Shown: positions 29,814-44,042 of the stretch, piece after piece | Position numbering within the stretch: the first letter of the stretch is position 1 | How the letters are laid out: every line of letters begins with the position of its first letter | Assembly (NCBI GenBank): GCA_000972765.1 | Contig: CP011265.1 | Location: forward strand, 1,907,501 to 1,971,500 | DNA from: Verrucomicrobia bacterium IMCC26134 | Lineage (GTDB): Bacteria > Verrucomicrobiota > Verrucomicrobiia > Opitutales > Opitutaceae | Direction of reading: 5' to 3' | Length of the DNA stretch: 64,000 bases | Translations under genes and position numbers: made by a program | The notes under the pieces: model-generated | Database searches by the model: none | Seen by the model: only the letters and a program-made list of their open reading frames with translations | Told to the model about the DNA's origin: nothing

Positions 29814-30366
29814 ACTTGAACTCGGATCGATTGACGCACTGTAAGCAAGAAACACTCAGCTCGATAAACCAATACCTACTCAGTAACTCATCTTCACCGA
29901 ACTGCACCGCTAGGGAGCAACAGCCCGTCGCCATCCGTCTCAAAAACAGCTGATCACGAGGGAAAAGCAAAGTGTGAAGCACAAGCGAAGTAAAAACACA
30001 TTGAGAATTTTTTCCACGAACCACGTGACACATATGGAACTCCAACGCTAAAATAAGCTATGCCCTTTGCCTATCTGATTCGTGTTAATGCTTTCATACC
30101 CTGTAGTTCTCTTACAACTACTCATGCCTCGAAATTAACAGGGCGAACCCATTCATTCCTTTATGGCAACGCCCGCAGCAAAAGCATCGAATCGCCTAAC
30201 GCGCGTCCCTAGAGGCCATGGGTTTCATTAATACCATGAATGCGTTTTGCTTATGTCGTGCGTATAATTGGAATAATCGCCCTGAAATTGTAGCTTGATT
30301 ACCCCGAATGGCTGCGAACGCTTCTGCGCTCGTGCCCGCAAGGCCCAAGCCCGACTTAAACGACCC
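29814..30366. other. Long intergenic region upstream of coxB
   Basis: 553 bases without a supported gene. It is AT-richer than its surroundings and carries the promoter region for the oxidase operon on its right side (see 30263-30268). An 88-codon minus-strand frame (29779-30045) has no recognisable domain and overlaps the neighbouring gene, so it is not called. No tRNA or terminator was seen. Confidence 0.5.
30263..30268 (+). promoter_or_regulatory. Candidate -10 element for the cox operon
   Basis: A perfect TATAAT about 100 bases before the coxB ATG. At 17-base spacing the -35 position reads ATGCGT, a poor match to TTGACA, so an activator or another sigma factor may be involved. The assignment is by consensus only. 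Confidence 0.35.
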
Positions 30367-31626
30367 ATGAGTTTCGCCACCACTTCCCGCCGTCTGGCGA
30401 CCGCTATCGCGGTCGCATCCATATCGCTTTTCACGAGCGGTTGGCTGTCCGGACCACAATCCACCTTTGAAACCAAAGGTCCCGTTGCGCGCTCCCAGCT
30501 CGATGTCTTCTACGTCACGCTCTGGGTGACGATGATAGTCTTCATAATCGTCGCCGGAGTGCTCGCCTATGCCACGCTAAAATACAAAGCGCGCCAGGAT
30601 GACGTAGATAAACCGATCCCGCCACAAGGGCACGGTAACCCTTTCGTCGAGCTTGGCCTCATCGCTCTCTCGATAGGAGCCTTGGTCATTATCGCGGTTC
30701 CAACACTGCGCGCCATTTGGTATACCTACGATATTCCAGAATCCGAGCGTGCCAACGCCTACGAAGTGAACGCACAAGGTCTTCAGTGGTGGTTTCGCTT
30801 TGAATACCCTTCTGAACAAATTGATGGCACGGGCATCCTCGTAAACGCCAATGAGCTTGTTATCCCCGCCGGCCGGCCGGTGCGAGTTAATCTCCGCACC
30901 GCTGATGTCATCCATGCATTTTGGGTTCCCAAGCTCGCAGGGAAGGTAGATATGATGCCAAACCGTGGAAATCATCTTTGGCTTAAAGCCGATGAACCCG
31001 GATATTTCTGGGGACAATGTGCCGAATTCTGCGGCGAGGATCATGCGGTCATGCGTTTCCGCGTCATCGCCTTGGCCCAGGATGATTTTACTCGCTGGAT
31101 AGCCAATCAAAAGGCACCGGCACGCACTGTAAGCGTAACACCCGAACAACCTAAACTTCAAGCTGCTGGCTATGTTCCGCTCGTAAACCCAAAACGCAAC
31201 GCGCCTGGCTACACGGCGGGATTTGACGCCGATCCGTTTGGCGGATGGAAGCGCATGCAGGAAGTCGATGCCGGAGAAGAAGCTAAACTGGCTTTAGATG
31301 GACGTGCTCTTTTCAAAGAGAAAACCTGCATAACCTGTCATACTGTTCGCGGTCACGATGGCATGGGCGTAAACGCCCCTGATCTTACCCATTTCGGCTC
31401 TAGAACTACCGTCGCTGCAGGTCTCCTCGAAAATTCCAAACAGAACCTCCATCGCTGGATCACCAACCCGAACAACGTAAAGCCCGGTAACAAAATGTAT
31501 GTGGGCGTAAATGGCATGTCGGGTTACATCAAGCCCGACGAAAAAGGCGACATGACTATCGAGCACATCAAACTCAATGACAGCGAAGCACGCGCCATCG
31601 TGGAATACCTCCACAGTCTCAAATAA
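30367..31626 (+). CDS. coxB: Cytochrome c oxidase subunit II with fused cytochrome c domain
   Basis: 419 residues from ATG 30367. Two membrane helices (about 47-69 and 93-115), a cupredoxin domain with all CuA ligands (His183, Cys218, Glu220, Cys222, His226, Met229) and a C-terminal haem c domain (CITCH, 321-325; likely Met ligand in GNKMYVG). This is the caa3-type layout, in which the fused cytochrome passes electrons to CuA. The N-terminal signal-like helix lacks the lipobox cysteine often seen in caa3 subunit II. First gene of coxBACD. Confidence 0.95.
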   Translation: MSFATTSRRLATAIAVASISLFTSGWLSGPQSTFETKGPVARSQLDVFYVTLWVTMIVFIIVAGVLAYATLKYKARQDDVDKPIPPQGHGNPFVELGLIALSIGALVIIAVPTLRAIWYTYDIPESERANAYEVNAQGLQWWFRFEYPSEQIDGTGILVNANELVIPAGRPVRVNLRTADVIHAFWVPKLAGKVDMMPNRGNHLWLKADEPGYFWGQCAEFCGEDHAVMRFRVIALAQDDFTRWIANQKAPARTVSVTPEQPKLQAAGYVPLVNPKRNAPGYTAGFDADPFGGWKRMQEVDAGEEAKLALDGRALFKEKTCITCHTVRGHDGMGVNAPDLTHFGSRTTVAAGLLENSKQNLHRWITNPNNVKPGNKMYVGVNGMSGYIKPDEKGDMTIEHIKLNDSEARAIVEYLHSLK

Positions 31627-31694
31627 TCCGGAGACACAGTCACCGCTCCAGCTCCTCCCGCTCAATTTTCATCATCACAATCCTATCCTTCCCC

Positions 31695-33653
31695 ATGGAA
31701 GCCGCCCTTAAGACATCCTACACCGAAAAAGACCACGCGCCGAAGCCATCTTCACGCCCTTGGTTTTTCACCCGTCCCACCGCCAAAACAGGCCTCATCT
31801 CTTGGCTGACCACGGTGGACCACAAAAAGATCGGCCTGCTCTACGGTATTTTCTCACTGTTCTTCTTCCTCGTTGGTGGCTTCGAGGCTCTCCTGATACG
31901 CGTTCAACTGGCGGTGCCTAACAACACCTTTCTAACGCATCAGCTCTACAACGAGATGTTCACCATGCACGCGACTACGATGATCTTCCTCGCCGTCATG
32001 CCACTCTCGGCCGCGTTTTTCAATTATCTCATGCCGCTGCAAATCGGCGCACGCGACGTAGCTTTCCCCCGTCTAAACGGCTTCGCCTTCTGGGTCTTCC
32101 TCGCCGGTGCTATTATCCTAAACGTAGGTTGGTTTGCTAAATCAGGCGCCCCCGACGCAGGCTGGTTCGGCTACGCTCCGCTTACATCCACCGCATATTC
32201 CAATCAATTTGCCGGCGACTCTTCCACCGATCTTTGGGTAATGGGTCTTCAGATCCTCGGCGTCTCTTCCGTGATCGGTTCGCTTAACTTTATTGTTACG
32301 ATCGTCAACATGCGTGCGCCGGGACTCACCATGATGCGTCTGCCAGTGTTTACTTGGATGACGCTTTTTACCGCTTTCCTGATTATTCTTTCGTTCCCTG
32401 CTATCACGATCGCGCTGGTCGAGCTCATGATGGATCGTTCCTTTGGCACCAGTTTCTTCGAGGTTTCCAAGGGTGGCTTACCTATCCTATGGCAGCATCT
32501 ATTCTGGATTTTCGGACACCCCGAGGTTTATATTTTGATTCTGCCCGCGATGGGTATCGTGTCTGAGATATTGCCCACCTTTTCGCGCAAGCCTCTGTTC
32601 GGATATCCCATCGTGGTATTCTCCGGAGCGGTCATAGGCTTCCTGGGCTTTGGAGTGTGGTCCCACCATATGTTTACTACCGGTCTCGGCACCATGGCGA
32701 CGGCTGCATTCTCCCTAGCAACCATGGCAATCGCCGTGCCCACGGGCGTTAAGATATTCAACTGGATAGGCACCCTCTGGGGCGGCCAAATCCACACCCG
32801 AACACCCATGATGTTCGCCCTCGGATTCATCTGGATGTTTATGATGGGTGGCTTCTCTGGCGTTATGCACTCCGCTGCTCCGGCTGATGCCCAGCAGCAA
32901 GATAGCTATTTCGTCGTAGCCCACTTCCACTACGTGCTGATCGGCGGATCCATTTTCGCGCTGTTAGCTGGCGTGCATTTCTATTTTCCGTTGGTGTTTG
33001 GCCGCATGGTCTCTGAATTCTGGGGCAAGCTCTCCTTCTGGGTCATTTTCATCGGCTTTAACGTTACTTTCTTCCCTATGCACTTCCTTGGCCTCAACGG
33101 CATGCCGCGCCGCACCGCCGTTTACGACGGTAACATGGGGTGGAATTCAGGCAACTTGATCGCCTCGATCGGAGCATTCATCCTAGGAGTTGGTATCTTC
33201 ATCTACTTCGTCGTCATTGTTTATACTTACCTCAAGGGTAAGATCGTAAGCCGTGATCCATGGGATGCCCGCACCCTTGAGTGGGCGGTGCCTACCGTTC
33301 CGCCGCCCGAACATAATTTCCATGTCACCCCGACTATTCATGCCCGTGACGCATTCTGGTATCAGAAGACTCACACAAAAGAGATCGCCGAAGAGAACGA
33401 CAAGCATGCAAAGGAAGAGGAATCCCACGGCGGCATTCATATGCCTAGCCAATCCTGGTTTCCTATCATAACCGCCTGCGGTCTCTTAATCGGCGGACTT
33501 TTCTTTACCCATCACCATTTCCTCGCCGCCATCGGCGGCGGTGTGATCGTATTTCTCGGGGTCGTTGGCTGGGCTTTCGAAGGTCCGGGCGGTTACCACC
33601 TCCATCTCGACAAGGATGGCAATCCAACGGATTCCCACGGCGATAAGCACTAA
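31695..33653 (+). CDS. coxA: Cytochrome c oxidase subunit I
   Basis: 652 residues. Twelve core helices plus two extra C-terminal ones (about 585-630), as in long caa3-type subunit I proteins. Haem a ligand in MHATTMIF (His92), the His-Tyr pair and D-channel Glu in GHPEVYI (His275, Glu278, Tyr279), CuB histidines in WSHHMFT, and haem ligands in VVAHFHYVL. It reduces oxygen to water and pumps protons. The tail is His-rich (HLHLDKDGNPTDSHGDKH). 68 bases after coxB. Confidence 0.97.
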   Translation: MEAALKTSYTEKDHAPKPSSRPWFFTRPTAKTGLISWLTTVDHKKIGLLYGIFSLFFFLVGGFEALLIRVQLAVPNNTFLTHQLYNEMFTMHATTMIFLAVMPLSAAFFNYLMPLQIGARDVAFPRLNGFAFWVFLAGAIILNVGWFAKSGAPDAGWFGYAPLTSTAYSNQFAGDSSTDLWVMGLQILGVSSVIGSLNFIVTIVNMRAPGLTMMRLPVFTWMTLFTAFLIILSFPAITIALVELMMDRSFGTSFFEVSKGGLPILWQHLFWIFGHPEVYILILPAMGIVSEILPTFSRKPLFGYPIVVFSGAVIGFLGFGVWSHHMFTTGLGTMATAAFSLATMAIAVPTGVKIFNWIGTLWGGQIHTRTPMMFALGFIWMFMMGGFSGVMHSAAPADAQQQDSYFVVAHFHYVLIGGSIFALLAGVHFYFPLVFGRMVSEFWGKLSFWVIFIGFNVTFFPMHFLGLNGMPRRTAVYDGNMGWNSGNLIASIGAFILGVGIFIYFVVIVYTYLKGKIVSRDPWDARTLEWAVPTVPPPEHNFHVTPTIHARDAFWYQKTHTKEIAEENDKHAKEEESHGGIHMPSQSWFPIITACGLLIGGLFFTHHHFLAAIGGGVIVFLGVVGWAFEGPGGYHLHLDKDGNPTDSHGDKH

Positions 33654-33700
33654 TCGCTCCTACCGATAGTATCCTTCTTAAATAACCTTTTTTTCGTTTC

Positions 33701-34552
33701 ATGAGCGCTCACGCCGGCACCATCGATCATCATCATGATCACACTACCACCACGGGCATTCCAAACAAGAAGCTCTTCATGTGGGCCTTCCTTGCTTCGG
33801 ACTGCATGTTCTTCGCTGCCCTGATATCGACCCATGTGATTTACCGGTTGCACCCTACTCCCGACGGTCCTGACCCGAAGAAAATATTTTCGATCGAACT
33901 TACATCGTTCTCAACGTTCATCCTTTTGATGTCCTCCTTGCTTATGGCGCTCGCCGTCAGCGCGAGCCAGAAGGGGAAGGTGGAGGCAACGCGGAAGATG
34001 ATCCTGGGGACAATCGCCTTCGGACTTATATTCTTGGGCTGTCAGGTTTACGAATTCAGCCACTTTGTGCACCTCGGGCTGACGCTCTCCAGCAGCATGT
34101 TTGGCTCGACCTTCTACACGTTGACCGGGACTCACGGTGTGCACGTTGCCATCGGCGTGGTCTGGCTAGTGCTTACCTACATCAGGACGTTCAAGCCTGC
34201 CAACGAGGCCAAGGCATGGATCATTCGCTCGATCGTCCAATTCGTAGCCTTTGCCGTGGCAGTCGTCTCCATTATGGTGATGATGCTGGCTGTTACTCAC
34301 GCCGGCGCTGAGCACGGATATTCACTTTCTTCGGTGCTTCATGCCCTGCAGACTAACTTTATAACTAGCGTCTCCACTGCCGCCTTTGCCGTGTCCACCG
34401 CTTTACTCTTCGTCCTCGGCCGCTCAACTGGCGAAGTGGATTTCGGTGAGGTCAATGCCATCGATGTAGAAGGCATGGGCCTCTATTGGCACTTCGTCGA
34501 CATCGTCTGGATCATCATCTTCACTGTCGTTTACTTGCTGGAGTATCTATAA
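33701..34552 (+). CDS. coxC: Cytochrome c oxidase subunit III
   Basis: 283 residues, about seven membrane helices. Family blocks KKLFMWAFLASDCMFFAAL, GCQVYEFSHFVHLG, LTGTHGVHVAIGVVWL and YWHFVDIVWIIIFTVVYL are clear. The N-terminus begins with a His/Thr-rich stretch (DHHHDHTTTT). It stabilises subunit I and proton uptake. 47 bases after coxA. Confidence 0.95.
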   Translation: MSAHAGTIDHHHDHTTTTGIPNKKLFMWAFLASDCMFFAALISTHVIYRLHPTPDGPDPKKIFSIELTSFSTFILLMSSLLMALAVSASQKGKVEATRKMILGTIAFGLIFLGCQVYEFSHFVHLGLTLSSSMFGSTFYTLTGTHGVHVAIGVVWLVLTYIRTFKPANEAKAWIIRSIVQFVAFAVAVVSIMVMMLAVTHAGAEHGYSLSSVLHALQTNFITSVSTAAFAVSTALLFVLGRSTGEVDFGEVNAIDVEGMGLYWHFVDIVWIIIFTVVYLLEYL

Positions 34553-34600
34553 TCCGGCTACTCCGAGCCTATATATTAATTAGCCTAAACTATTTCGCAG

Positions 34601-34990
34601 ATGTCTTCCGCCGTTCCCCTTACACATACAGCATCCAGCATTGATCAAGCCCACGCAGATGAGGGCAAGTTCCACCTCTTCGTGCAAATCGCCATGCTAC
34701 TGGGCGTCATCACTGGCGTAGAGATCATTATAGTCTATCTACCTCTCGCCAAATGGCTGGTGGTAACGGCGCTTTCGGTGCTTTCTTTAGTCAAGTTTCT
34801 CTACGTGATTTTCTATTTCATGCATTTAAAGTTCGATAAACTTTTTTGCACGATTCTGTTCTTTATCGGACTTGTTCTAGCGGGCGGAACTGCCACTGCA
34901 TTACTAGCCATTTTCTCCAGCAAAGACAGCATACCTGAGACAGCAAAAGTAATATACGCCGAGCGCGCCGCCGCTTCCGTAACGAAATAA
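34601..34990 (+). CDS. coxD: Cytochrome c oxidase subunit IV (prokaryotic type)
   Basis: 129 residues with three membrane helices and a short hydrophilic start. The pattern VKFLYVIFYFMHLKFD is characteristic of the small COX4/CtaF-like subunit. It is the last gene of coxBACD, followed by a strong terminator. No haem a synthase or Sco assembly gene is in the cluster. Confidence 0.85.
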   Translation: MSSAVPLTHTASSIDQAHADEGKFHLFVQIAMLLGVITGVEIIIVYLPLAKWLVVTALSVLSLVKFLYVIFYFMHLKFDKLFCTILFFIGLVLAGGTATALLAIFSSKDSIPETAKVIYAERAAASVTK

Positions 34991-36104: not shown

Positions 36105-37874
36105 GTGAACGTCCCTCAGTTTTTGACTCTTTCTTCTTCGATGTTGTCTTCAAATGACCTCGTCCTTGTCTTTGACGCCAATAACCGCCTAGCCGTGCGA
36201 AAGTCGAGCAGCGGTCTGGTTCCGGTCGAGGCCGAGCGTTTCTCCAGCGCGAGCCGATCTGCGATCGCATTCAATTTCGAGTTCTCTGACGTAAAATACA
36301 GGATCGTTCTCGCAAGCCTCCCGAATGGCGTAGCCAGCGATCTTGAGGTGTGCTTCGCATCTCTCGATCAGCTAACTCAACCCGATGGAAAAGCCGCCTG
36401 CTCCTTACTACTCAAGGCCCTTCTGCCTGCGCTCGACCCTTATCTTGTAGAACTTCCCTATCTCCATCTGGGCGAAAACGATTTCATCTACAAATTTCGC
36501 CCGGCACAGGAGCGCAACTCATCCATCTACGCCCGCGATGAATCGTCACGCGCCCTATATCAATCCACCCTTTGCTCGGCCATCAAGGCCCTCGCCCGGC
36601 GCCATGAACGCTCCGCCGCCGCCCCCGTCCCTTTGGATTTCGGTGCTGTTAAATACCTTCTCCCGAGCCACTTCGGCTTTTGCTTAGGTGTAAAAAACGC
36701 CATCGAACGCGCCTATGAGACCCTTGCTGAAAACCCGGGGCGTCGCGTTTTCATGCTTTCAGAGTTAATTCATAACCCTTTCGTAAACGACGATCTCCTC
36801 CGACGCGGCCTGCGCTACCTGCAATCCGATAAAGGTGTCCCTTTCACCGTTTCGGGGCGCGCCGCAACCTCCACCCCGACCGTCTCGGCAGATAATACTT
36901 TAGATTCGCTGCGATGGGATACCCTGACCCCCGACGATATAGTCATCATCCCCGCCTTCGGCGCGACCGACGACGACAAACGCAGACTCGTGCGCCGCGG
37001 CCTCGCTGTCTGCGCTTACGATGCCACCTGCATGCTGGTCGAGAAGGTATGGAAAGCCGCCCGTGCCTATGGTCGTGATGGATACACCGTTATTATCCAC
37101 GGTAAGCACGAACATGAGGAGACCAAGGCCACATTCGCCAACACCTGCCGCCATGCGCCTGCGGTCATTGTGCGTAATCTCGCCGAGACTCGTCTCATAG
37201 CCGAGCTCATCCCGCTAAGGCACCACCCCGACGCCCAAACCCGTTTCGAAGCCGCCTTTGCAGGCCGCTACTCACTGGGCTTCGCCGTCGCACGCGACCT
37301 CGAACGAGTCGCGGTCGTTAACCAGACGACCCTTCTCGTCAATGAAACCCGCGAGATCATCGAGCACCTCCGTTCTGTCTACAATTCCGCTTTTGGAACC
37401 GACGTTCCTGGGCTACCAGACCGAGTAGGAGGCAGTGGTCGCACCGATACGCTGTGCTATGCCACCCAAGTCAACCAAGACGCACTCGGTCGCGTCCTCG
37501 CCGAACCGCTGGACGCAGCCTTCGTAATAGGTGGAAAAAATTCTTCCAACACCTACCAACTCCACCGCCTTTGCGAAGAGCGTCTTGGATGCCTGGCATT
37601 TTTCATCCAAAGCGAGGCTGACATACATTCGATCTCCGAAGTGTCGCACTACGTATTCCCTGCTCACGGACCAGGCGCCTGCGATGGCGGCCATACCGAA
37701 TTGCGTCAACTCTGGCCGGGAGAAACATTCTCCCGACCACGTCGTATTTTAATCACTGGTGGTGCATCTTGTCCTGATGGGCTGATCCAGCAGGTTATTG
37801 CACGAATCAACGGCCTTTTCCCAACCACTAAACTCAGGTCCTGCGAAACCGTATTGGCAGAGTTAAAAAATTAA
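36105..37874 (+). CDS. ispH: IspH (LytB) with an extra N-terminal domain
   Basis: 589 residues from GTG 36105, or 577 from ATG 36141. Residues about 183-589 are 4-hydroxy-3-methylbut-2-enyl diphosphate reductase, the last step of the MEP isoprenoid route: iron-sulfur cysteines Cys193 (SHFGFCLGV), Cys309 (YDATCMLVEKV) and Cys556 (TGGASCPDG), the glutamate block HGKHEHEETKAT, VVNQTTLLVNE and the substrate Ser/Asn site KNSSNTYQL. This resembles the long form known from plants and cyanobacteria. Residues 14-175 form an additional domain of mixed strand and helix without recognised relatives; it begins NDLVLVFDANNRLAV. Confidence 0.9.
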   Translation: MNVPQFLTLSSSMLSSNDLVLVFDANNRLAVRKSSSGLVPVEAERFSSASRSAIAFNFEFSDVKYRIVLASLPNGVASDLEVCFASLDQLTQPDGKAACSLLLKALLPALDPYLVELPYLHLGENDFIYKFRPAQERNSSIYARDESSRALYQSTLCSAIKALARRHERSAAAPVPLDFGAVKYLLPSHFGFCLGVKNAIERAYETLAENPGRRVFMLSELIHNPFVNDDLLRRGLRYLQSDKGVPFTVSGRAATSTPTVSADNTLDSLRWDTLTPDDIVIIPAFGATDDDKRRLVRRGLAVCAYDATCMLVEKVWKAARAYGRDGYTVIIHGKHEHEETKATFANTCRHAPAVIVRNLAETRLIAELIPLRHHPDAQTRFEAAFAGRYSLGFAVARDLERVAVVNQTTLLVNETREIIEHLRSVYNSAFGTDVPGLPDRVGGSGRTDTLCYATQVNQDALGRVLAEPLDAAFVIGGKNSSNTYQLHRLCEERLGCLAFFIQSEADIHSISEVSHYVFPAHGPGACDGGHTELRQLWPGETFSRPRRILITGGASCPDGLIQQVIARINGLFPTTKLRSCETVLAELKN

Positions 37875-39774: not shown

Positions 39775-41079
39775 TCATCCACCTGAGAGCGTCTGAATGA
39801 TCTTAACGAGTGGCAGGAAAAGGGCGATGACGATGGTGCCAACCACAACAGCCATGAATACAATCATGATAGGCTCGATAATTGAAGTGATAGACGTCAC
39901 TGCATTGTCGACTTCCTCGTCGTAGGTATCGGCGATGCGTGTCAGCATCTCGGGTAAAGCGCCGGTTTCCTCGCCGACCTCGACCATCGAGGTCACCATG
40001 GTGGGGAATATCTTCGTCGCCTCGAGTGGCTTGCCAACACCTTCACCCTCTTTCACGCGATCATGCACGCTGTTTAGCGCCTCGGCGATGTGGACATTAC
40101 CCGAAGTGTCGCGCGTGATGATAATAGCCTGAAGAATGGGCACACCGGATGAAAGCAATGTTCCGAAAGTGCGGGTAAAACGGCCCACGGCAGCTTTTAG
40201 GAAAAGCGGTCCGAACGCCGGTATTTTGATCTGAATATAATCAACAATACGACTGCCTGTTTTTGTTTTACAAAGCATGCGAAAGCCAACCACGGAGCCG
40301 ACAACTAGACCGATAGTCGCCAGAATCTGGTTTTTCAGGAAGTTTGAAACCGCGATAACCCCTTGAGTAAGAAGCGGGAGCGGTGTGCCCTTTAATAAGC
40401 CAGAAAATATCTCCTCGAACTTCGGAATGACGAAGACCATCAGGGCGGCGACGATGAGGACAGCAACGCACATGATAATGACCGGGTAGGTCATGGCGGC
40501 TTTAACCTTACCTTTGATCTTCTCTGCCTTCTCCATGAAGCGCGATAGGCGATCCAGAACTGTGCCAAGCACACCGCCTGCCTCACCGGCCTTCACCATG
40601 TTAATGTAAAGGCGATCGAAGACTTTAGGATGCTGTGATAGACCGTCTGAAAAAGTGCCACCCGAACGGATGGTCTCGCCAACCTGCTCTAGCACATACT
40701 GGAACCCTTGGTTTTTCTCCTGGCGGGCGAGGGTTTCCAGTGAGCGCAGGATAGGCATGCCGGCGTTCACCAGGGTAGATAACTGGCGGGTAAACACCGC
40801 TAGCCCTTGGTTACTGATAACTTTCCCCAATGCCATGGGCCGCTTCTTCTTTTTCTCAGGGGCAGCCTTTGAAACAAAGGCACCGCCGGAACCGGCTTTA
40901 TCGGGAGCAGCCATCTTGGCGCCCATTTTAAAGCCGCCAGCCGCCGCTACCACTGAGGTAGGGAGCAGTCCCATGTTTTTAAGATCCAGCGCAGCTTGTT
41001 CCGAATTGGCGCTGTCAATCACGCCTTTCTTATCTTTGCCAGTAGATGAATCGATGGCGATGTAGGTGAACTTAGGCAT
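39775..41079 (-). CDS. pilC: Type IV pilus / type II secretion platform protein PilC (GspF family)
   Basis: 434 residues. The N-terminal 90 residues carry the small PilC N-domain (FTYIAIDSSTGKDKKGVIDS) and a Lys/Ala-rich linker. Two T2SSF domains follow, each ending in membrane helices (FTRQLSTLVNAGMPILRSLETLA and FTRTFGTLLSSGVPILQAI as two repeats). The platform couples the motor ATPases to the pilus base. Last gene of the pil motor group; the same protein could also serve the GspG-M system, which has no gspF. Confidence 0.9.
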   Translation of the reverse strand: MPKFTYIAIDSSTGKDKKGVIDSANSEQAALDLKNMGLLPTSVVAAAGGFKMGAKMAAPDKAGSGGAFVSKAAPEKKKKRPMALGKVISNQGLAVFTRQLSTLVNAGMPILRSLETLARQEKNQGFQYVLEQVGETIRSGGTFSDGLSQHPKVFDRLYINMVKAGEAGGVLGTVLDRLSRFMEKAEKIKGKVKAAMTYPVIIMCVAVLIVAALMVFVIPKFEEIFSGLLKGTPLPLLTQGVIAVSNFLKNQILATIGLVVGSVVGFRMLCKTKTGSRIVDYIQIKIPAFGPLFLKAAVGRFTRTFGTLLSSGVPILQAIIITRDTSGNVHIAEALNSVHDRVKEGEGVGKPLEATKIFPTMVTSMVEVGEETGALPEMLTRIADTYDEEVDNAVTSITSIIEPIMIVFMAVVVGTIVIALFLPLVKIIQTLSGG

Positions 41080-41205
41080 GGGAATGGGGATTATCGTGAA
41101 TTACGCCCTGACGGGAAAACCTTTGGTGTAGAAAACAATATGAATACGCTAAGTTTGAATGCGACACGGATTTCGAATTATTGGTCTAGTAGTAGAATGC
41201 CTAGA

Positions 41206-42903
41206 CTAGGTGTATTTGACGACTTCTTCAATGGATGTGGCACCATCAAAAATAGCCCGCAAACCGTCATCGCGCAAGGTGCGCATACCTTGTTCGAGCG
41301 CTTTTTGCTTAATCACAAGCGTAGGGGCACGCTCAACCACCAGATCACGAACTGCCTCGCTCATGCGAAGCCACTCATAGATGCCCATGCGGCCCTTGTA
41401 GCCGGTATTGTTGCAAACTCCGCAACCTTTACCGAAGAAAAATTCGCGATCACCGATATCAATTGGATCAATACCTAACTGATGAAGCAAGGTCGCGGGT
41501 GGCTCGTAAGCGGTGCGGCAGGTGGCGCAAACGCGACGCACCAATCGTTGCGCCAAGACCGCCTCGACTGAAGAAGCGATCAGGAAAGGCTCCACCCCCA
41601 TATCCACTAGACGCGTAACTGCGCCGGCGGCATCGTTGGTGTGCAGAGTGGAGAGCACCAAGTGACCGGTCAGTGAGGCTTGAATTGAAATCTGCGCCGT
41701 CTCCAAGTCACGAATCTCGCCCACCATGATGATGTCGGGATCTTGGCGCAGGAAAGAGCGGAGTGCCTTCGCGAAAGACAGGCCTACGGTATGATTGACC
41801 GGAACCTGCATGATGCCCTCGATTTCGTATTCAACAGGGTCCTCGGCGGTAAGGATTTTGACATCGGGACTGTTAACGATCCTGAGAGAACTGTAGAGCG
41901 TGGTGGTCTTGCCTGAACCCGTGGGGCCAGTAACGATAAAGATACCGTTGGGACGCTTTACGATTTCGTTGATGCCCTCGAAAACGTCCTCGGGCATGCC
42001 GAGTTGGGAAATATCCAACTGAACCGCACTTTGATCCAAAACACGGAGCACGACGGATTCTCCAAATTGAGTAGGAAGCGTGGAGACGCGCAAATCCACG
42101 GGGCGTCCTGCGATCGTGAGTTTGATACGACCATCCTGGGGTATGCGACGCTCTGCGATATTAAGATTCGCGAGCACCTTTACACGCGAGGTTATGGAAA
42201 GTGAAAGATGCTTAGGGGGCGGCGACATCTCGTAGAGAGAACCGTCGATACGGTAACGAATCTTAAATTCGTGCTCGAAGGGTTCAAAATGGATGTCGGA
42301 CGCCTTGTCCCGAATCGCCTGACCAAGCACCAAGTTCACGAAGCGTATAATCGGCCCCTGGCCCGCCATCGCCTCCAGATCGGTAGCGTTGAGATCTTCT
42401 CCTGCGAAACCGGCGGACTGGTCGCCCTCTTTAAGGTCGCTCAGAAGATCGTCAAAATTATGCGCCTCCTCCGGATAGTGATCCTTGATCAATGACTCGA
42501 CGCGGGAGGGATCGCAGACAATCAACCGAACATCCTTACCCAAGGCAAAGGTCAGGTCGTCGATGATCTGGGAGTTAAACGGGTCAACGGCCAGCAGATC
42601 GACACTTACCGAGTCGGCGCGATAGGGCACCACCGCATAATTACGGGCCTGCGCGACATTGACCGCGCCTGCGACATCGCCAGACACGGAGTTGGGCACG
42701 TCGGCCAGGTATTCGGCATCAAGATACGAGGCAATCTCGCGCAGCAACACCGGCTTGGTCACCATTTGCAGCTCGATGGCCAGATTGGCAATGGAAGTGC
42801 CGGTGAGACGGTGCTCTTCCTGGACGGTGGTGAGAGACTTTTCGTCAAGGCGAAGGCGCTCGCGTAGAATCTCAATTATGGCCTGGGAGTGGTCTTCGAA
42901 CAT
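41206..42903 (-). CDS. Second PilB/GspE-type secretion ATPase
   Basis: 565 residues. N-terminal MshEN/GspE_N region (1-150), then the hexameric ATPase core with Walker [16 protein letters not shown], Asp box [11 protein letters not shown], Walker [14 protein letters not shown] and the zinc-finger cysteines CATC and CGVC. It differs clearly from the pilB at 44087 in its first 150 residues. A pilus polymerising ATPase or the ATPase of the type II system (gspE) would both fit; position beside pilC and pilT does not decide it. Confidence 0.85.
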
Positions 42904-42959
42904 GGAACGGATGGGCGGCTTAAAGGAAAGGGGGTTCAGGGCAAACTTGGCCGGGACGA

Positions 42960-44042
42960 TCAGATGGTCTTCAAAACGGCGCCGAGTTGGGTGAGTTTTT
43001 CACGCATCGCGATTGCGTCCTGCGCCTTGTCCATAGCCTCGTCGGGGGTGATGAGCTGGCGATTAACCAGACTGAGGAGATGCGAATCCATGGTGATCAT
43101 TCCAAGATTACCGCCCGTCTGGATGTCAGAGGTGATACGGAATGTTTTATTTTCGCGGATCATCGATGCGATCGAGGTCGTATTGATCATGATCTCGTAT
43201 CCGGCGATACGTCCGCCGCCGATTTTTTTACATAGAACCTGAGAGATGACGGCTACCAATGACGATGCGAGCTGAGTGCGGATCATCTCTTTCATGTTCG
43301 CGGGAAATGCATCCACGATACGATCGACCGTCTTGGCCGCGCTGTTGGTGTGAAGCGTGCCAAACACCAAGTGACCGGTTTCAGCCGCCGTGATGGCGGC
43401 CTCGATCGTTTCAAGGTCACGCATTTCACCTACGAGGATGATATCCGGATCCTGACGCAGGGCGCGTTTGATGGCCTCGGCGAAATTGCCGACATCGACC
43501 CCTATTTCACGTTGCGTGACGATACAGCGCTTATGGGTGTGATAATACTCAATCGGATCCTCCACCGTGATAATGTGGCCCTCGCGGTTCTCGTTGATGT
43601 AATTTACCATCGAGGCTAGTGTGGTCGACTTACCCGAGCCGGTAGGACCAGTGACCAGAATGAGACCACGCGGACGGTAAAGGAGCTCTCTCACCTTGTC
43701 GGGCAAGCCGATCTCTCGCAGGCCATACATCTTATTTGGAATTTGGCGTAGAACGATACCGTAGTTGCCTTTGGAGCGCAGAACCGAAACGCGGAAACGA
43801 GCCTTCTCGGCGAACGCAAAACCGAAGTCAGTCCCACCGTTTGTCTTCACGTTTTGCTGGTGGAGATCAGAGGTGATCGCCAGCATCAAGTGCTCTGTAT
43901 CGGCCGGTGTAAGATTCGGACCCTCGATCGGCACCATACTGCCGCTAATACGTAGGGTCGGAGGCTGCCCAACCTGACAGTGAAGATCCGAGGCGTTTTG
44001 CTCCACCACCAGATCCAGAAGATCGTTCATTTCGTAGCTCAT
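42960..44042 (-). CDS. pilT: Type IV pilus retraction ATPase PilT
   Basis: 360 residues, the usual PilT length. Start block [14 protein letters not shown], Walker [10 protein letters not shown] (131-139), Asp box [11 protein letters not shown], Walker [14 protein letters not shown], His box [15 protein letters not shown] and the PilT-specific stretch [15 protein letters not shown]. No zinc-finger cysteine pairs, in contrast to the two PilB-type neighbours. Presence of PilT argues that a real retractile pilus is built. Confidence 0.93.

Follow-up and report, generated by a model that had tools for sequence, protein, structure and literature searches.

The window analysed here, a stretch of 64,000 nucleotides of contig CP011265.1 from Verrucomicrobia bacterium IMCC26134 (positions 1,907,501 to 1,971,500), carries an ispH gene whose product has a long N-terminal extension. 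Cytochrome c oxidase genes lie upstream (30295-34990, recognised by eye from their translations) and the type IV pilus genes PilC, PilB and PilT downstream (39775-44042, also by eye), and both sets look ordinary. The features of the gene, in window coordinates, are as follows.

36105..37874, + strand: ispH open frame (GTG start, 589 aa), from the LYTB match
36141..36143, + strand: favoured start codon, ATG (residue 13; product of 577 aa), inferred from matches to relatives
36141..36452, + strand: predicted degenerate Nudix-fold domain, residues ~13-116 (AlphaFold2, Foldseek, VIA)
36453..36650, + strand: connector, residues 117-182 (NF009911 alignment and same-class IspH alignment)
36651..37871, + strand: IspH catalytic part, residues 183-589 (Pfam, NCBIfam, VIA to E. 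coli IspH)
36681..36683, + strand: cluster cysteine C193 (FGFC)
37029..37031, + strand: cluster cysteine C309 (DATC)
37455..37457, + strand: cluster cysteine C451 (DTLC)

The Pfam family LYTB spans residues 188-568 (E 1.9e-60; 204.9 bits against a curated cut-off of 24.5), and this was the only LYTB match that the profile search found in the 4.0 Mb genome, therefore presumably the working IspH of the cell. C193, C309 and C451 are invariant in 26/26 aligned sequences and all lie inside residues 183-589, which fits the placement of the cluster and substrate residues in the first-pass annotation. The predicted catalytic part superimposes on E. coli IspH with a Z of ~25 at 2.7 Å over 287-291 residues (VIA). 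The window protein is presumably the ordinary [4Fe-4S] IspH reductase of the cell, of the long plant/cyanobacterial-like type, and family knowledge suggests that its reductase chemistry would be that of IspH, which reduces HMBPP to IPP and DMAPP, the building blocks of isoprenoids. Translation may begin at the ATG at 36141 instead of the GTG at 36105, because matches to relatives mostly begin at residue 12 or beyond of the 589-aa frame; this evidence is weak, since the relatives' own starts were assigned by a script rule, and by eye no clear ribosome-binding site precedes either codon. A start near residue 175, which would have removed the extension altogether, disagrees with the relatives, which share the N-terminal part and among which that part appears to be under purifying selection.

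The extension had been described as one new N-terminal domain of about 170 residues. A real and conserved extension does precede a complete IspH, but it is not a single domain; it consists of two parts, residues ~13-116 (hereafter the N-domain) and ~117-182 (the connector), the latter well conserved in the family and the former variable. The best NCBIfam model was NF009911, the plant/cyanobacterial-type IspH, in which residues 146-572 align to profile positions 29-397 of 405 with 317 bits, a score under the curated cut-off of 440. With a 409-aa IspH of the same class, too, the core and a part of the connector can be aligned. Judged from this profile and this one same-class protein, residues ~117-182 appear similar, over at least some of their length, to the N-terminal region of IspH of the plant/cyanobacterial type. 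Model confidence is low at residues 111-119 (577-residue numbering), within the connector. In the sections available of PMC12605070 (also PMC9044040 and PMC4746011), the N-terminal conserved domain of plant and cyanobacterial IspH is described as needed for complementation in E. coli, and the first of these papers cautions against inferring function from sequence alone. Compared with that type of IspH (PRK13371, NF009911), the core and part of the connector align, and the window protein has ~105 residues more in front, which are predicted to be Nudix.

The first-pass annotation assigned the extension to no known family, and in the sequence searches this held for residues ~13-116, which no Pfam or NCBIfam family recognises. 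No Nudix profile was among the 11 Pfam families at E<=10 (26 members searched), the NCBIfam search of the window protein at E<=1 showed no Nudix or isomerase model, and a PDB profile search with the N-domain returned three designed proteins only (best E 0.0074) and no Nudix protein. It did not hold in the structure searches, where predicted models of the N-domain match the known Nudix fold with both Foldseek and VIA. The AlphaFold2 model of the full-length protein was built from 77 sequences (mean pLDDT 85.4, pTM 0.81), and seven of its first ten 10-residue blocks average a pLDDT >=90. In the 577-residue numbering the N-domain is predicted to contain strands at 5-11, 17-22, 25-28, 38-48, 51-59 and 70-73 and helices at 75-79, 89-97 and 99-104. 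Among the best 50 Foldseek matches of this model, 12 IspH rows are followed by MutY, MutT, Ap4A hydrolase and other Nudix proteins (E 0.013 and weaker); a few ribosomal entries and a single nitrogenase-complex entry come lower down. The VIA matches at ranks 9-50 are all Nudix-type except 3rh7, and are headed by MutY with a Z of 9.1 over 96 residues. For the full model the Nudix rows thus have E >0.001 and Z ~9, only a little higher than the range of 7-8 which the tool itself regards as common. The isolated N-domain of a relative, L068, was modelled at 119 residues (pLDDT 87.2) with an extra helix predicted at 37-47, the segment of which is absent from the window's sequence. This model gave 59 Foldseek matches at E<=0.001, the best 50 being Nudix-type or 3rh7, and VIA matches with Z up to 12.8, including 592 of 1000 chains at Z >=8. 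Some of the matches in these searches we take to be Nudix proteins from general knowledge rather than from their entry titles. Taken together, the models make it very likely that residues ~13-116 adopt a Nudix fold. The entry 3rh7 is a putative oxidoreductase from Sinorhizobium meliloti whose C-terminal part matches the N-domain; it may be a further case of a redox enzyme that carries an inactive Nudix domain.

For the analysis of motifs, a set of 115 N-domains was assembled (108 rows and seven added), in which some genes are present twice under two locus ids; L099 and L101, where the pattern was not found, and a row with unknown residues were left out. The Nudix box GX5EX7REUXEEXGU occurs in 0/115 N-domains, as does C[CGS]H, so that the isomerase cysteine motif N-x-C-C-[GS]-H is absent as well; the looser pattern C[CGS][HSP] retrieved only a CGS in L029 and a CSP in L044. 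The complete cysteine motif is present in sequences from 14/14 loci above the TIGR02150 cut-off; the pattern used to collect those isomerase sequences itself requires such a cysteine motif, and no locus was lost by it. With Nudix box and cysteine motif both absent, the N-domain should be catalytically dead, an expectation from sequence that we hold with considerable confidence. The clearest trace of a motif was seen in L029 (genome G027), which has W-x4-C-G where IPP isomerases have W-x-N-x-C-C-G-H, and L026 has a G-D-S-x2-A stretch where the Nudix box would start. TIGR02150 did not match the window protein at E<=1 in the NCBIfam search, and the one TIGR02150 match of the genome lies elsewhere, at 56.4 bits against a cut-off of 105.8.

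Profile comparisons with hhalign point to a particular Nudix branch. The 115 N-domains matched a 44-sequence set of isomerases and isomerase-like proteins with a score of 40.2 and a probability of 88% over 106 columns, and matched 14 true isomerases alone (36.2, 79%) and 17 isomerase-like proteins alone (37.5, 82%) about equally; as both sets score alike, an origin from one cannot be separated from an origin from the other. Scores were 14.4 with a MutT set (11 sequences), 15.3 with a 22-sequence set of TIGR00052 hits and 19.9 with all 17 non-isomerase sequences of the first collection, and probabilities were <=3% with Nudix sets free of isomerase-like proteins. The TIGR00052 set is ADP-ribose-pyrophosphatase-like, and the family is over its cut-off in only 1/189 genomes. 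Random 11-sequence samples of the isomerase set scored 27.8-40.7 over 102-107 columns in 8/8 cases, samples of the TIGR00052 set 12.3-15.7 in 6/6, and column shuffles at best 15.6 (30 shuffles, 44-sequence set) and 17.2 (20 shuffles, true isomerases). The Nudix-set patterns yielded a sequence from 14/14, 17/18, 30/34 and 22/30 loci. The isomerase signal rests mainly on distant members, 15 of which alone reached 78%, against 7% for 25 helix-less rows (the window's genus and a few others) and 5% over 106 columns for 75 helix-bearing Opitutaceae rows; true Nudix branches match one another at 96-99%. The signal appeared once the Nudix sequences were split by branch, earlier comparisons having given 22% over 20 columns (26 mixed Nudix sequences) and 27% over 24 columns (30 mixed sequences including 13 isomerase-like). 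This split was made after the structural hits and is therefore not an independent prediction.

The predicted structures do not decide the branch, since isomerase is tied with many Nudix families. The top VIA match of the L068 domain is Salmonella IPP isomerase (Z 12.8, 115 residues, 2.5 Å), tied with an Aquifex Nudix protein (12.7), MutY (12.3) and ADP-ribose diphosphatase (12.1). The domain might instead derive from another Nudix branch, for example that of the MutY C-terminal domain, the isomerase signal then being due to chance or to the choice of sets. MutY tops the Nudix rows for the window model and is among those tied for the L068 domain, and the comparison of branches, which covered isomerase, isomerase-like, MutT, TIGR00052-hit and mixed non-isomerase sets, was made once the structural hits were known. 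Nevertheless, the MutT, TIGR00052-hit and mixed non-isomerase sets scored near the shuffled level while all eight isomerase samples scored in the range given above, and we regard another origin as unlikely. Descent from the IPP-isomerase/isomerase-like Nudix branch is, on the sequence profiles, probable. The MutY C-terminal domain, the part of a DNA glycosylase that recognises 8-oxoguanine in DNA, is likewise a Nudix fold carried by another enzyme (Z 9.1 with the window model and 12.3 with the L068 domain). IPP isomerase type I (Idi), together with the isomerase-like Nudix proteins, is the best profile match of the sets tested and the first, but tied, structural match; compared with Idi, the N-domain is without the Nudix box and the cysteine motif, has a shortened loop region and is fused to IspH.

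The distribution of the fusion, which the first-pass annotation had proposed to survey, was examined among sampled relatives. With a whole-protein profile the long form was found in 35/37 genomes sampled from the genus and family of the window and in 9/33 other genomes of its order; in four of the latter the profile match starts at 61-84, and their N-terminal part was confirmed by direct reading. G017 and G035, the two family members that lack the long form, have a conventional IspH (LYTB over 267 and 266 positions, frames of 349 and 378 residues). Among the matches listed for same-class genomes, all lie downstream of the Nudix part, starting no earlier than model position 135, and the frames that hold them are 402-721 residues long; this result concerns the profile match itself. 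Across the nearer relatives the long form was present in 36/57; it was found only as short fragments in G004 and G028 and cut at contig ends in G002 and G007. The best 80 of 260 relatives have record titles such as Opitutaceae, Opitutae and Verrucomicrobia, with a single Akkermansia muciniphila (L040, CAMCZZ010000016.1), whose copy is 74% identical to the window's protein and which is perhaps a mislabelled Opitutaceae bin. Among cultured relatives, Geminisphaera colitermitum TAV2 (L100) has the fusion. At L032 (G019:C1:7102305-7104106) the match to the fusion is split into two parts that lie in different frames on either side of a proline/leucine-rich coding stretch, possibly a frameshift or an assembly error.

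No stand-alone N-domain was found in 288 genomes of the phylum sample, where the 23 profile matches at E<=0.001 all lie at ispH loci. This search scored at most the 15 best candidates per genome and had limited sensitivity, missing the fusion carriers G265, G327, G046, G093 and G102 and finding G155, G187 and G245 only weakly. One candidate, G002:C12, was rejected as a stand-alone copy; it lies at a contig end and looks like the cut-off start of the same gene. Same-class matches to isomerase-like Nudix proteins, e.g. G075:C1:1880764-1881207, lie within open frames of ~454 aa, a length which suggests that the isomerase-like domain there may be fused to something else.

Selection on the N-domain was estimated from pairs of relatives, which are not independent of one another and do not include the window's gene. 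Its dN/dS is <1 in 39/39 pairs with measurable divergence (0.05-0.95) and above that of the catalytic part in 36/39, and by this measure of sequence change the N-domain is under purifying selection among the relatives. In 13 pairs among the seven closest loci (L037-L043) dN/dS is 0.20-0.95, and the helix segment is missing there; for these two reasons the role of the domain may be weakening in those loci. The same two features would suit a fading relic without a role, kept because the start codon precedes it. Such a relic is improbable, given dN/dS of 0.05-0.50 in the 26 other pairs and the presence of the N-domain in other families of the order.

The preferred reading is that a dead Nudix domain of the isomerase branch was fused to IspH and serves as a structural accessory, an explanation that, taken whole, we favour with moderate confidence. 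An ancestor of Opitutaceae-like Verrucomicrobiota would have fused a Nudix domain of the isomerase-like branch to the N-terminus of IspH; the domain would then have lost its metal-binding and catalytic motifs and ceased to be an enzyme, and would now pack beside the connector and the IspH core, helping with folding, assembly or protein contacts. The accessory role taken by itself is put forward tentatively. It is the simplest proposal because the domain was not found alone in the genomes searched and stays with this type of IspH across families, and because it shows no conserved polar pocket and for the most part changes more rapidly than the core does. In the alignment of 77 rows (L058, L081, L094 and L109, 4/80 loci, were left out of the alignment sets for a short or masked start) an F and an A are invariant, and the positions conserved at >=90% are L, N, L, R, F, L, P, L, L, P and L, plus the start M and the final PYL. 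Conserved positions in the N-domain are thus few; apart from N27 and R32 they are mainly hydrophobic residues or prolines, in keeping with a structural role.

Conservation also bears on a second use of such a domain. A dead Nudix domain might still bind a diphosphate (IPP, DMAPP, HMBPP or a nucleotide) and tune IspH as a feedback sensor, an idea that comes from the similarity in profile to the isomerase branch, since isomerase ligands are the products of IspH. Over the family cut-offs, IPP isomerase type I was found in 2/57 relatives and type II in 0/57, so most of them may control the supply of IPP and DMAPP at some other point; across the phylum sample, 13/288 genomes have a type I enzyme over the cut-off. 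However, the 77 rows show no conserved polar set for a pocket, the stretch expected to carry the ligand loop is absent from the window's sequence, and five fusion carriers (G033, G034, G202, G265 and G327) also have a true type I isomerase, all of which leaves the sensor rather improbable. A bolder form of it, which we consider more doubtful still, is that the protein is a fossil fusion of two enzymes that follow one another in isoprenoid synthesis, IspH and a Nudix protein of the IPP-isomerase type, in which the former isomerase part would have become a non-catalytic IPP/DMAPP sensor setting the flux through IspH or the IPP:DMAPP ratio; this form concerns bacteria that mostly lack a recognisable separate isomerase and is, for them too, a long shot. 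The N-domain was also considered as a replacement for a lost isomerase; this was not adopted because a true isomerase is present in the five carriers and no catalytic motif is left.

IspH requires an external electron donor, and the first-pass annotation had suggested that the extension might bind that donor or regulate the enzyme. An added N-terminal domain could widen the face on which ferredoxin or flavodoxin docks. Against this, the conserved positions include no charged patch, only one arginine, and the window's gene neighbours are seldom near ispH in the 80 loci: within flanks of up to 6 kb, some of them shorter, the GreA-like gene was found 22 times, the lipoprotein gene 15, DUF5069 eight and the four cox genes 0 times. 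None of the results speaks specifically for ferredoxin binding, and docking of the donor seems very doubtful. The gene neighbourhood, being mostly unshared, gives no hint of function, and regulation of IspH by the N-domain in some form is possible.

Few fusions of IspH have been described. Those named in the part of Rao et al. 2015 (PMC4746011) available to us are with RPS1, UbiA, CMP kinase, a helicase, fructose bisphosphatase, UDP/PNP phosphorylase and the N-terminal conserved domain. As here, proteins such as IspH-RPS1 and IspH-UbiA join IspH to another domain, but in none of those named (PMC4746011) is the partner a Nudix or isomerase domain, and the word Nudix is absent from the text of Rao et al. 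2015. Searches by title, in a partial coverage of the literature, retrieved no paper on an IspH-Nudix or IspH-isomerase fusion and nothing pertinent on degenerate Nudix domains. The window protein combines a known enzyme with what is very likely a known fold, a combination that we have not found described.

What had stood as the unknown domain of the extension is replaced by a testable one. A dead Nudix relative, perhaps related to the enzyme that follows IspH in the pathway, carried by IspH throughout a family would be a natural test case for the change from a catalytic to an accessory domain. IspH is essential in many bacteria and is a drug target, and the N-domain might point to a means of adjusting the IPP:DMAPP output of the enzyme.
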